A DNA stretch of 64,000 nt from Microbacterium sp. W4I4 (lineage in GTDB: Bacteria; Actinomycetota; Actinomycetes; Actinomycetales; Microbacteriaceae): positions 372,001 to 436,000 of the forward strand of contig NZ_JAUSXT010000001.1 of NCBI RefSeq assembly GCF_030816235.1. The letters run 5' to 3'. The notes below the pieces were generated by a model. It made no database searches, was not told the origin of the DNA, and saw only the letters and a program-made list of their open reading frames with translations. Shown piece after piece: positions 51,895-56,960 of this stretch. Numbering within the stretch: position 1 is the first letter of the stretch; the number at the start of each line of letters is the position of its first letter. A program made the position numbers and the translations under genes.

Positions 51895-53142
51895 GTGACT
51901 CCTGCCACGACCAAGAAGACCCGGACGACCACCAAGAAGACTGCAGCTGCAGAGGTCGAGACTCCCGAGGTCGCAGACACCGCTGCGACGGCGCCGGCCG
52001 AGAAGGCCCCCGCCAAGAAGGCACCGGCCAAGAAGGCGCCCGCCAAGCGTGCGTCCAAGAAGAAGGACGAGACCCCCGAGGTCGACGACGAAGCCGTCGA
52101 GGCGGCTGAGGCGGAGGACGAGGAGGACAAGAAGCCCACGTTCTCGGAGCCGCTGCCCACCGGCGCGATCGTGATCTCCTCCACCGACGACGATGACGCC
52201 CCGGTCTACTCGACGCAGATCACCGGTGCGACCGCCGACCCGGTCAAGGACTACCTCAAGCAGATCGGAAAGGTCGCGCTGCTGAACGCGGCCGAAGAGG
52301 TCGAGCTTGCGATGCGGATCGAAGCCGGTCTGTTCGCCGAGGAGAAGCTGTCGGCGATGACCGCGGCGGAGAAGACCAGCCAGCTCGGGCTCGACCTGCA
52401 GTGGGTCGCCCGTGACGGCCACCGCGCCAAGAGCCACCTGCTCGGCGCCAACCTGCGTCTGGTGGTCTCGCTGGCCAAGCGCTACACCGGCCGCGGCATG
52501 CAGTTCCTGGATCTGATCCAGGAGGGCAACCTCGGTCTGATCCGCGCGGTCGAGAAGTTCGACTACACCAAGGGCTTCAAGTTCTCGACGTACGCCACCT
52601 GGTGGATCCGTCAGGCGATCACCCGTGCGATGGCCGATCAGGCCCGCACGATCCGCATCCCGGTGCACATGGTCGAGGTCATCAACAAGCTCGCCCGCGT
52701 GCAGCGTCAGATGCTGCAGGACCTGGGTCGCGAACCCACCCCCGAGGAGCTGTCCCGCGAGCTCGACATGACGCCCGAGAAGGTCGTCGAGGTGCAGAAG
52801 TACGGCCGCGAGCCGATCTCCCTGCACACCCCGCTCGGCGAGGACGGCGACAGCGAGTTCGGTGACCTGATCGAGGACACCGAGGCCGTCGTGCCCGCGG
52901 ACGCGGTCGGCTTCACGATGCTGCAGCGTCAGCTCGAGCAGCTGCTCGACTCGCTGTCCGAGCGCGAGGCAGGTGTGATCCGGATGCGCTTCGGACTCGG
53001 TGACGGCCAGCCCAAGACCCTCGACCAGATCGGTGACACTTTCGGTGTGACGCGCGAGCGCATCCGCCAGATCGAGTCGAAGACGATGGCCAAGCTGCGA
53101 CACCCGAGCCGGTCGCAGTCGCTGCGGGACTACCTCGAATGA
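51895..53142 (+). CDS. rpoD: Primary RNA polymerase sigma factor (SigA/HrdB type)
   Basis: Housekeeping sigma-70 factor. The 415-residue protein has a low-complexity Lys/Ala/Pro/Glu-rich N-terminus of about 90 residues, typical of actinobacterial SigA. Conserved regions follow: 1.2 ('DPVKDYLKQIGKVALLNAAE', its key DPVKDYLKQIG), 2.1-2.4 ('NLRLVVSLAKRYTGRGMQFL', 'KFSTYATWWIRQAITRAM'), 3 ('RQMLQDLGREPTPEEL') and 4.2 ('GVTRERIRQIESKTMAKLRH'). GTG start after AAAGGCG. The stop overlaps the murT-like start by four bases (ATGA), coupling a cell-wall gene set to the sigma factor. Confidence 0.96.
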   Translation: MTPATTKKTRTTTKKTAAAEVETPEVADTAATAPAEKAPAKKAPAKKAPAKRASKKKDETPEVDDEAVEAAEAEDEEDKKPTFSEPLPTGAIVISSTDDDDAPVYSTQITGATADPVKDYLKQIGKVALLNAAEEVELAMRIEAGLFAEEKLSAMTAAEKTSQLGLDLQWVARDGHRAKSHLLGANLRLVVSLAKRYTGRGMQFLDLIQEGNLGLIRAVEKFDYTKGFKFSTYATWWIRQAITRAMADQARTIRIPVHMVEVINKLARVQRQMLQDLGREPTPEELSRELDMTPEKVVEVQKYGREPISLHTPLGEDGDSEFGDLIEDTEAVVPADAVGFTMLQRQLEQLLDSLSEREAGVIRMRFGLGDGQPKTLDQIGDTFGVTRERIRQIESKTMAKLRHPSRSQSLRDYLE

Positions 53143-54458
53143 TGTCGAAGGCGCCGCAGGCCCGCTCAGCCGGCCTGCGGTACGTCTTCCCCGTGCTGGC
53201 GGGAAAGATCGCGCGTTTCGCGACCCGTCTGCGCGGGGGAGGCTCGGCGTTCCCCGGATACCTCACCAACCGGCTGTCCCCGACGCTTCTGCCGACGCTG
53301 GCCGATCAGTTCCCGTACGGCGTGGTGTTCGTGCTCGGCTCGAACGGCAAGACGACCACGACGCACATGATCAGTGAGGTGCTCCGCGCCCACGGTCTGA
53401 CCGTGTTCACGAACCCGACGGGCGCGAACCTGCCGCAGGGCGTGACCAGTGCGCTGCTCGCGGATGCGACGCTCACGGGACGCATCCGTGCGGACGTGGC
53501 GGTGCTCGAGGTCGACGAGGGATATGCGGCGGATCTCGCCGACAAGCTCTCCCCGGCCGTGATCCTGTCGCTGAACGTCCAGGTGGACCAGCTGTACCGG
53601 TTCTATGAGACCGAGCGGGTGGCCGACATGATGCTCGAGGCGTCGAAGCGCGCTCAGGCGCACGTCGTCGTGAACCGCGACGACCCGTATCTCAGCAAGA
53701 TCGACGTCGACGCCATGCGTGCGCCGGTGTCCTTCTTCGGTGTGGCGTCGGAGATCGTCGCCGCCTCCGCGCACGGGCTGGCCAACGCCACTGACACGCG
53801 CAGCGGCAACGCCGGCATCCAGGACCGCGACGCGTATTCCGAGGTGCGCAGCGTCGCCGGGCGCGACATCACCGTGCAGGTCGGCGATGCGGAGGTCGCC
53901 GTGCGGCTGCCCGCCCGCGGCCTGCACTACGCGGCGGACGCCGCGGCCGCGCTGGCCGTCGCATCCCGTACGCTCGGCGATCGCTTCTCTTCGGATGCCG
54001 CATCCCGTGGCTTCGACCGCATGGCCCCGGCCTACGGACGCGGCGAGGTCATCCCGCTGCGGCGGGATCCGGACGGCGAACAGGTCGAGTTCGTGATGTT
54101 CAAGAACGCGCCCAGCCTGCAGATGAATCTGGACGCACTGGAGGGCGCCCCGGAGCGGTCGCTGATCGCGATCGACGAGGGCACCCCTGACGTGTCGTGG
54201 CTGTACGACGTGGACTTCGACGCGCTGACCTCCGTTGACGTCGTCACCGGCGAGAAGGCGTACCAGCTGGCGCTGGCGCTGGAGCACGCCGGCGTGCGCA
54301 TCGGCGCGGTCGAGCCCGACATGGAGAAGGCTGTCGCGATGATGCGGGCGTTCGAGCCCACTGCGACAGGTCGGCAGACCTGGTTCGTGAACTACGAGCT
54401 CATGATGATCGGCCGCAGGATCCTCGGCCATGGTGACCAGGAGGTGGCTCGCCGATGA
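53139..54458 (+). CDS. murT: MurT-like Mur ligase lacking the Cys4 zinc ribbon
   Basis: A 439-residue Mur-ligase relative. In MurT-GatD the ligase activates the D-Glu alpha-carboxyl of lipid II for amidation. Seen here: P-loop 'GSNGKTTTT' (residues 67-75), 'AVLEVDEGYA' (about 121-130), 'LNVQVDQLYRFYE' (altered from the usual NLFRDQLDRYGE) and a DUF1727 domain with 'PDVSWLYDVDFDAL' (about 350-363). No cysteine occurs in the protein, so the Cys4 zinc ribbon normally around residues 200-230 is absent. Coupled upstream to rpoD and downstream to gatD by 4-nt overlaps. Probably a repurposed MurT. Confidence 0.85.
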   Translation: MMSKAPQARSAGLRYVFPVLAGKIARFATRLRGGGSAFPGYLTNRLSPTLLPTLADQFPYGVVFVLGSNGKTTTTHMISEVLRAHGLTVFTNPTGANLPQGVTSALLADATLTGRIRADVAVLEVDEGYAADLADKLSPAVILSLNVQVDQLYRFYETERVADMMLEASKRAQAHVVVNRDDPYLSKIDVDAMRAPVSFFGVASEIVAASAHGLANATDTRSGNAGIQDRDAYSEVRSVAGRDITVQVGDAEVAVRLPARGLHYAADAAAALAVASRTLGDRFSSDAASRGFDRMAPAYGRGEVIPLRRDPDGEQVEFVMFKNAPSLQMNLDALEGAPERSLIAIDEGTPDVSWLYDVDFDALTSVDVVTGEKAYQLALALEHAGVRIGAVEPDMEKAVAMMRAFEPTATGRQTWFVNYELMMIGRRILGHGDQEVARR

Positions 54459-55929: not shown

Positions 55930-56960
55930 GCACACCCGTTCTGAGGATCTCCCGAGGCGCGTTCCGGACGAACATCGCCGTCGTGCGCGAGCGCCTCGGC
56001 ACCTCGCAGCTGATGCTGGTGATGAAGGACGACGCGTACGGGCACGGGCTCGACTGGGCCGTGCCCGAGGCGGAGGCCGCCGGCGTCACCTGGTTCGGCA
56101 GCTACGACATCCCCACCGCGCTGCGGATCCGTGCGCTGACGACGGGGCGAGTGTATGCATGGGCCCCGTCGTCCGAGGACGAGATCGACGCCGCCGTGCG
56201 AGCGGACATCGAACTGGGCATCGGCTCGACCGACTATCTGAGCGCGGTCATCGACACGGCCGCGAGGCTCGGAACCGGCGTCGGACTGCATCTGAAGATC
56301 GACACGGGGCTGCACCGGAACGGCTTCCGCCCGGAGGACTGGCCGCAGGCGCTGCAGATCGCGCGCGACGCGGAGCAGCGCGGACTCGTCCGCATCGTCG
56401 GCGTGTGGAGTCACCTCGCGGAGGCGAGCGACCAGGAGGACGACGCCGCCCAGCAGGTGTTCCTCACCGCCGTGCAGCAGCTGGTCGATGCCGGTGGTGC
56501 ACCGGAGGTGCTGCATCTGACGGCGTCCGCCGCAGCCTGGTGGCGGCCGGAGCTGAGGGGCAGCCTCAGCCGCATCGGCGCCTTCTGCTACGGCATCCGC
56601 TCGGCCGACGGTCCCGAGCTGGACGGCCTCTCGCTCATCTCGTCGCTGGTCGCGAGCGTCGACGCCGTCGAAGGCGACCGCGTCCGCATCGGACTGGGCG
56701 CCTTCCACGGCGTGCCTTCCACACTGCGCGGAGCGCTGGTCATCACGCCGAGCGGGGGCCGGAGGGTGATCGAGATCGGCGGCGCCAGCTCCGTCGTCGA
56801 AGGGTGGCCCGACGCCCGCGAGGGCGACGAGGTCATCGTGTTCGGGCCCGGAGCGGCCGGAGAAGCGGACGCGACCGCTCTCGCGGAGCGCATCGACACG
56901 GTGGGCGAGGAGATCCTCACACGCCTGACGCCCGCGGTGCGTCGGGTCGTCGAGGACTGA
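55926..56960 (+). CDS. Alanine-racemase-like protein with intact N-terminal (PLP-Lys) half only
   Basis: A 344-residue fold-type III PLP protein. The barrel is intact: PLP Lys34 in 'VMKDDAYGHGLDWA', Arg131 in 'KIDTGLHRNGF', 'GVWSHLAEASD', Ser201 in 'HLTASAAAWW', and 'SRIGAFCYGI'. The C-terminal domain is divergent ('GDRVRIGLGAFHGVPSTL'), with no GYADG tyrosine and no GR(I/V)xMD block. In alanine racemase dimers each active site uses Lys from one subunit and Tyr from the other, so this protein could pair with the product of the preceding gene. A 4-nt overlap couples the two. Confidence 0.85.
   Translation: MSTPVLRISRGAFRTNIAVVRERLGTSQLMLVMKDDAYGHGLDWAVPEAEAAGVTWFGSYDIPTALRIRALTTGRVYAWAPSSEDEIDAAVRADIELGIGSTDYLSAVIDTAARLGTGVGLHLKIDTGLHRNGFRPEDWPQALQIARDAEQRGLVRIVGVWSHLAEASDQEDDAAQQVFLTAVQQLVDAGGAPEVLHLTASAAAWWRPELRGSLSRIGAFCYGIRSADGPELDGLSLISSLVASVDAVEGDRVRIGLGAFHGVPSTLRGALVITPSGGRRVIEIGGASSVVEGWPDAREGDEVIVFGPGAAGEADATALAERIDTVGEEILTRLTPAVRRVVED

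Follow-up and report, generated by a model that had tools for sequence, protein, structure and literature searches.

A candidate locus for the type B peptidoglycan bridge between sigA and parE of Microbacterium, with exchangeable ligases and an optional split racemase

We analysed a stretch of 64,000 nucleotides (nt) from Microbacterium sp. W4I4 (contig NZ_JAUSXT010000001.1, positions 372,001 to 436,000; G000:C1:372001-436000 in our numbering), here called the window, and in particular four genes that lie between sigA and a parE-like gene. A preliminary description, made from the sequence of the window, had proposed that these four genes form a route to the type B cross-bridge of peptidoglycan. 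We use the names MurT* and GatD* for the class of these proteins in which the glutaminase is dead. The features of the locus are as follows.

51895..53142, plus strand: sigA/rpoD, left border of the syntenic locus; its last 4 nt overlap the start of murT*
53139..54458, plus strand: MurT-like ligase (MurT*), 439 amino acids (aa), with a Mur ligase central domain and a weak MurT_C domain
54455..55225, plus strand: GatD-like protein (GatD*), 256 aa, glutaminase fold; 4-nt overlap with murT*
55240..55929, plus strand: RacC, 229 aa, C-terminal half of an alanine racemase; starts 14 bp after gatD*
55926..56960, plus strand: RacN, 344 aa, alanine racemase with the lysine that binds pyridoxal phosphate (PLP) and the barrel; 4-nt overlap with racC
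57394..59511, plus strand: parE-like topoisomerase subunit, right border of the syntenic locus; the start was picked by eye within the frame 57088-59511

The order after sigA is murT*, gatD*, racC and racN, all on one strand and with the 14-bp gap between gatD* and racC as the only one, so that the coordinates confirm the layout first described.

The GatD-like protein had been said to lack the catalytic Cys and His, and this is correct. The residues of S. aureus GatD that match the catalytic ones are Cys94, His189 and Glu19 (accessible part of PMC6085368). In our alignment, Cys94 is replaced by Gly93 and His189 by Gln196 in the GatD* of the window; the protein contains no Cys at all, and none of its four His (69, 147, 158, 247) is the catalytic one. 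Note that these residue numbers were counted by hand. Among the 120 close relatives listed, the Cys position is a Gly in all 120 and the His position a Gln in 119, with a gap in the remaining one; because these residues are nearly invariant, their presence in the window is not a matter of chance. A wider comparison covered 116 loci, drawn from Microbacteriaceae plus two more families of its order. The catalytic Cys occurs in 0 of the 71 loci of the degenerate class (66 distinct genes; for 7 weak matches the alignment is uncertain), and both Cys and His occur in all 45 canonical loci. Several genera of the degenerate class other than Microbacterium retain the His. Judging from these alignments, a dead glutaminase is a fixed trait of the degenerate class, and GatD* is predicted to be a non-catalytic partner of MurT*. 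Outside Microbacteriaceae, no Cys-less GatD was seen in the 16 loci examined from the two other families. GatD* scores 52.5 and 56.5 bits against NCBIfam equivalog cut-offs of 400 and 450 bits, respectively. Public records nevertheless name proteins of the GatD*/MurT* kind "lipid II isoglutaminyl synthase (glutamine-hydrolyzing)", a name that should be used with caution.

MurT* exceeds the Pfam cut-offs for PF08245 (53.2 bits, cut-off 24) and PF08353 (31.9 bits, cut-off 25), and reaches 104.5 and 110 bits against the 800 bits of the NCBIfam MurT equivalogs. A comparison of 20 sequences showed that the P-loop GSNGKTTTT and the residues invariant in canonical MurT are retained. The known acceptor of MurT is the alpha-carboxyl of D-Glu. 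The MurT* of the window has indeed no Cys, as was noted previously, but this is nothing special: the CxxC ribbon is absent from 39 of 45 canonical MurT, although only 2 of the 45 are wholly free of Cys. We therefore rejected the idea that a Cys-free MurT indicates a new function. The CxxC-bearing MurT come from six genomes of Microbacteriaceae (g56, g77; L034-L039), unlike the other 39 canonical ones. PF08353 used on its own misses or blurs the degenerate MurT class. We also see a third, weak class of Cys-less MurT/GatD-like proteins in several genera (L041, L044, L049, L055, L058-L060; GatD-like matches of 36-76 bits), which adjoins a weak CofE match in two genomes (G049, G112).

The two racemase-like proteins had been described as each keeping a different half of the active site of alanine racemase (Alr), and the residues bear this out. 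In Geobacillus Alr numbering, RacN of the window keeps Lys39 (K34), Tyr43, Arg136, His166 and Arg219, lacks the Tyr265 segment and has Glu328 in place of Tyr354. RacC keeps the equivalents of Tyr265 (Y122) and Met312, has Arg33 at the position of Lys39, and most of its PLP barrel is deleted. This division is general. The five residues of RacN are present, and the Tyr265 segment is missing, in 108 of 108 split RacN; Tyr265 and Met312 are present in 125 of 125 RacC, none of which has Lys39 (one has a gap there). Between the two proteins, Lys39 and Tyr265 never fall in one polypeptide: the Lys is found only in RacN and Tyr265 only in RacC. The fold domains of alanine racemase are likewise found across the pair (PF01168 in RacN, 159.8 bits; PF00842 in RacC, 96.8 bits), and both proteins stay below the TIGR00492 equivalog cut-off of 168 bits (RacN 110.2, RacC 89.6). 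We rejected a sequencing artefact as the cause of the short RacC, as the median aligned length in 125 RacC is 220 and only 8 exceed 300. By their residues, the two proteins make up the complementary halves of a single alanine-racemase active site, and since the active sites of Alr are shared between two subunits, a RacC-RacN heterodimer could hold one complete site.

Tyr354 has a role in the substrate choice of Alr. Of the 108 split RacN, 81 have Glu at this position and 27 have Asp, whereas it is Tyr in all 20 housekeeping Alr checked; among the genomes checked, those with and those without the pair keep an ordinary Alr. The acidic residue suggests a diamino acid, with its cationic side chain, as the substrate. 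Nine racemases of other genera are not split; they retain Tyr265, and their residue at position 354 is Asp (L082, L084, L085, L088-L091, L138, L139). They resemble an undivided version of the diamino-acid racemase; some genomes have two adjacent racemase matches. In the genera g8 and g11, which have the unsplit racemase, no racemase is seen near MurT* in the loci read (L045 and L048). In one locus a diaminobutyrate-2-oxoglutarate transaminase of the EctB family (G053, L128:4602-5870; 603 bits, above its cut-off of 552) lies between an ATP-grasp gene and racN, a hint of diaminobutyrate walls. The housekeeping alr of the window genome (G000:C1:1455848-1456907, beside tsaE; L002, L008, L010) reads in two frames, as if frameshifted. 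A second alr (G000:C1:2161371-2162429; L003, L006) lies beside frames of a Ddl-like ligase and a response regulator, an arrangement that was named by eye and is reminiscent of a van-type cluster.

We wanted to know how widespread the four-gene set is. Among 197 Microbacterium genomes, a search with an alignment of degenerate MurT found MurT* in 36, and a search with an alignment of CofE-like ligases found such a ligase in 161. The two lists are exactly complementary, with no genome having both and none having neither. At an E-value of 1e-30, a single MurT match is seen in each of the 36 genomes and none in the remaining 161; a second, canonical MurT was seen in none of the 197. Since the four-gene set is absent from 161 of 197 genomes, that is, from most of this type B genus, we rejected it as a general marker of the type B wall; MurT* alone accounts for 36 of 197 genomes, both forms together for all 197. 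In the MurT*-free loci that were read, the site between sigA and parE is occupied by the CofE-like protein together with either one ATP-grasp protein or two. The CofE-like protein has the Pfam F420_ligase domain and the predicted CofE fold (the F420-gamma-glutamyl-ligase family), with 25.6 bits against the TIGR01916 equivalog cut-off of 180.65. Because this replacement family ligates amino acids and does so without a glutaminase, an amino acid is also the probable nucleophile of MurT*, as had been suggested on other grounds.

The CofE-like searches covered Microbacteriaceae; outside this family, the GatD of MurT matches was compared in two further families. In a sample of 249 genomes of the family, any MurT, canonical included, was found in 201 and a strong CofE in 38, with no overlap. 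A tree of sigA from 129 loci gives 17 changes of ligase by parsimony. The tree is quick and weak, and sigA is itself a neighbour in the locus; it indicates that the exchange between MurT* and CofE is more than one event, and says no more than that. In M. enclense NIO-1002, M. kunmingense and two more genomes (L352, L353, L351, L354), the locus is split, with sigA-cofE lying apart from ATP-grasp-racC-racN-parE. The racemase pair is separable as well, being found beside either ligase and missing in part of Microbacterium.

The ATP-grasp ligase is present in 23 of 23 CofE genomes examined and in 0 of 36 MurT* genomes, barring two of the latter with three weak matches between them. A search with the ATP-grasp fold points to a broad superfamily and leaves the substrate unnamed. 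In a tree of named loci, the ATP-grasp proteins from most racemase-free loci fall into clades apart from those of the racemase-bearing loci. There are two racemase-free exceptions inside racemase-bearing clades: L194, where the pair is missing at the locus and present elsewhere in the same genome, and L212, a metagenome-assembled genome (MAG). This pattern would suit a role of the ATP-grasp enzyme in adding the type-specific diamino acid, with the common step left to CofE or MurT*.

We also compared the presence of the racemase with the diamino acid of the wall. The lacticum clade of Microbacterium has L-Lys, and the trichothecenolyticum and aerolatum clades have D-Orn. Microbacterium is stated to have type B peptidoglycan in which the diamino acid is ornithine or lysine (PMC11319209), and diaminobutyric acid is added as a further wall diamino acid (PMC10757982). 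According to PMC10757982, from which the assignment of species to clades is also taken, the liquefaciens clade and the testaceum clade for the most part have D-Orn, and the two other species of the imperiale clade have L-Lys. Among the best 80 of 452 named genomes, which were confirmed and several of which are MAGs or mislabelled records, at least 75 complete loci were found, 50 with the racemase pair and 25 without. A check of whole genomes (23 of 24), in which RacN scores 405-562 bits and ordinary Alr 145-196 bits, found RacN in 10 and none in 13. The pair is absent from all six named species of the lysine clades (M. hominis, flavum, lacticum, paulum, arborescens and radiodurans) and present in all nine of the ornithine clades (M. 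allomyrinae, hibisci, kyungheense, testaceum, proteolyticum, enclense, oxydans, galbinum and aerolatum). At the level of clades, racemase and diamino acid thus agree for 15 of 15 named species when the clade typing given above is used. Reports on single species, as far as given in the accessible parts of PMC10757982 and PMC10978784, fit the racemase status in 6 of 9 cases (saccharophilum, arborescens, testaceum, proteolyticum, oxydans and galbinum).

Taken together, we consider it probable (roughly 60%) that the four genes represent one variant of a modular sigA-parE locus that makes the type B interpeptide bridge. MurT*, partnered by the Cys-less GatD*, would keep the alpha-carboxyl of D-glutamate as its acceptor and join to it an amino acid instead of ammonia. 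MurT* and CofE would perform the step that Lys- and Orn-type walls share, and the ATP-grasp ligase would add the type-specific residue. RacC and RacN would form one heterodimeric active site for ornithine, or for diaminobutyrate in some genera, and this two-gene racemase would supply the D-diamino acid, D-ornithine in Microbacterium. The preliminary description is thus partly supported. Its direction was right, and a tie to the type B bridge is probable, but the four-gene set as such is not supported as the route; the locus is wider, and the set is one of its exchangeable versions. A reading of the racemase pair as a composite enzyme, probably one that makes a D-diamino acid, is supported as well; the pair is optional and goes with either ligase.

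Several observations weigh against this interpretation. Nothing visible stands in for the ATP-grasp enzyme in MurT* genomes, and five MurT* loci of Microbacterium have no visible racC; three of these reach parE (L113, L121, L357), one ends early (L108) and one shows no parE (L361). The structure model of the CofE-like protein is of modest confidence (predicted local distance difference test 64.8, template modelling score 0.45-0.49). Within the family, three genomes combine a MurT-like gene with a weak CofE match, and 10 of 249 match neither search; one of these, G244, has a canonical MurT by Pfam (the others are the group G045, G108, G159, G202, G240 (g46), and also G017, G047, G057 and G110). 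A second, canonical MurT was not seen in Microbacterium, but canonical and degenerate MurT occur together in six genomes of Microbacteriaceae, and five genomes of the Leucobacter group and one of Lysinibacter have canonical MurT-GatD and neither alternative. Finally, we rejected the statement that all wall-type data fit, as 3 of the 9 single-species reports disagree: D-Orn is reported for M. radiodurans, whose genome has no RacN, and L-Lys for M. enclense and Lys for M. kunmingense, which both have racC-racN. In the accessible parts of the sources, M. radiodurans and M. enclense are named as exceptions within their clades (PMC10757982), and the nearest relative of M. kunmingense is reported with Orn. 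These three reports may be at fault; we counted them as real conflicts.

Potentially, the locus could serve the type B wall while MurT*-GatD* and the CofE-like ligase make another amide bond, for example in the extension of the bridge, the first bond being made elsewhere. The numbers of steps are in fact unequal, with two ligases in the CofE form and one ligase plus a non-catalytic partner in the MurT* form, and the Leucobacter genomes have neither form. On the other hand, the known acceptor of MurT is just this carboxyl, MurT* keeps the residues common with canonical MurT, and one of the two forms is present in every Microbacterium genome searched, so that we regard this explanation as unlikely. 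It is quite improbable that MurT*-GatD* still amidates D-Glu, using free ammonia because its GatD is dead, with no tie to the bridge. Such a role would agree with the history of the family, and glutaminase-dead amidotransferases that use ammonia are known in other systems, but MurT* and a ligase from a family that adds amino acids replace each other in every case, and MurT* sits together with the racemase pair and acts in bacteria whose type B walls carry a bridge on the alpha-carboxyl of D-Glu. We give even less credence to the view that RacC/RacN do not serve the supply of ornithine and are a regulator or an additional racemase for alanine or serine. The families that they match best are indeed alanine and serine racemases. 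An ordinary Alr with Tyr354 is, however, kept whether or not the pair is present, position 354 is acidic in all 108 split RacN, the pair tracks the Orn and Lys clades, and a diaminobutyrate transaminase lies within one of the loci.

If the bridge-making locus is real, then a MurT-GatD pair was recruited to amino-acid transfer by losing its ammonia supply. The locus provides a short list of candidate genes for the type B bridge, with which the genetics of the wall type would become directly testable, and a natural experiment in which two unrelated ligases are swapped species by species; the presence of the split racemase should predict the diamino acid of the wall. A more far-reaching version, for which we see about as much against as for, is that the sigA-parE site of Microbacteriaceae is the genetic switch of type B wall chemistry, where one of two alternative ligase modules (MurT*-GatD*, or the CofE-like ligase with the ATP-grasp ligase) charges the alpha-carboxyl of D-Glu with the bridge and the optional split racemase decides between D-ornithine or D-diaminobutyrate and L-lysine. 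The racemase would then consist of two alanine racemases, each dead by itself, that share a single heterodimeric active site in which the acidic residue acts as a gate for diamino acids. In that case, the wall type could be read from the genome sequence, and the three published diamino-acid reports would need correction.

Two further observations concern the surroundings of the four genes. A small Cys-rich frame on the minus strand (57013-57294) sits between racN and parE, and a frame of the same cluster in other loci matches DUF7455. At 47819-50668 of the window, a single open frame joins an aminopeptidase-like and an lpdA-like part, suggestive of a frameshift within the gene of the aminopeptidase.

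Type B peptidoglycan, which is bridged via the alpha-carboxyl of D-Glu, is the defining trait of a large bacterial family that lives in soil, in water and on plants. We found no paper naming genes that make its bridge, in a search outside which most subscription papers lay. The closest known system is MurT-GatD, the lipid II isoglutaminyl synthase of S. aureus and S. pneumoniae, which has the same two-gene arrangement of Mur ligase and GatD, the central domain, MurT_C and the invariant residues. In contrast to it, the pair described here has lost the nucleophilic Cys of GatD (and in Microbacterium also the His), lies far below the NCBIfam cut-offs, is swapped in sister species for CofE-like and ATP-grasp ligases, and is accompanied by a racemase pair. 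With alanine racemase (PLP fold type III), RacC and RacN share, across the pair, both fold domains and the examined active-site residues except Tyr354; they differ from it in being two proteins, with one possible complete site per heterodimer, and in having Asp or Glu in place of Tyr354. The replacement of MurT*-GatD* has the Pfam domain and the predicted fold in common with CofE, the F420-0:gamma-glutamyl ligase, while it scores far below the equivalog cut-off and adjoins racemase and ATP-grasp genes. Finally, the makers of type A bridges, namely the FemABX transferases and the ATP-grasp D-Asp ligases, also build an interpeptide bridge. As these enzymes are generally described, they act on the amino group of stem residue 3, whereas the locus between sigA and parE would act on the alpha-carboxyl of D-Glu.

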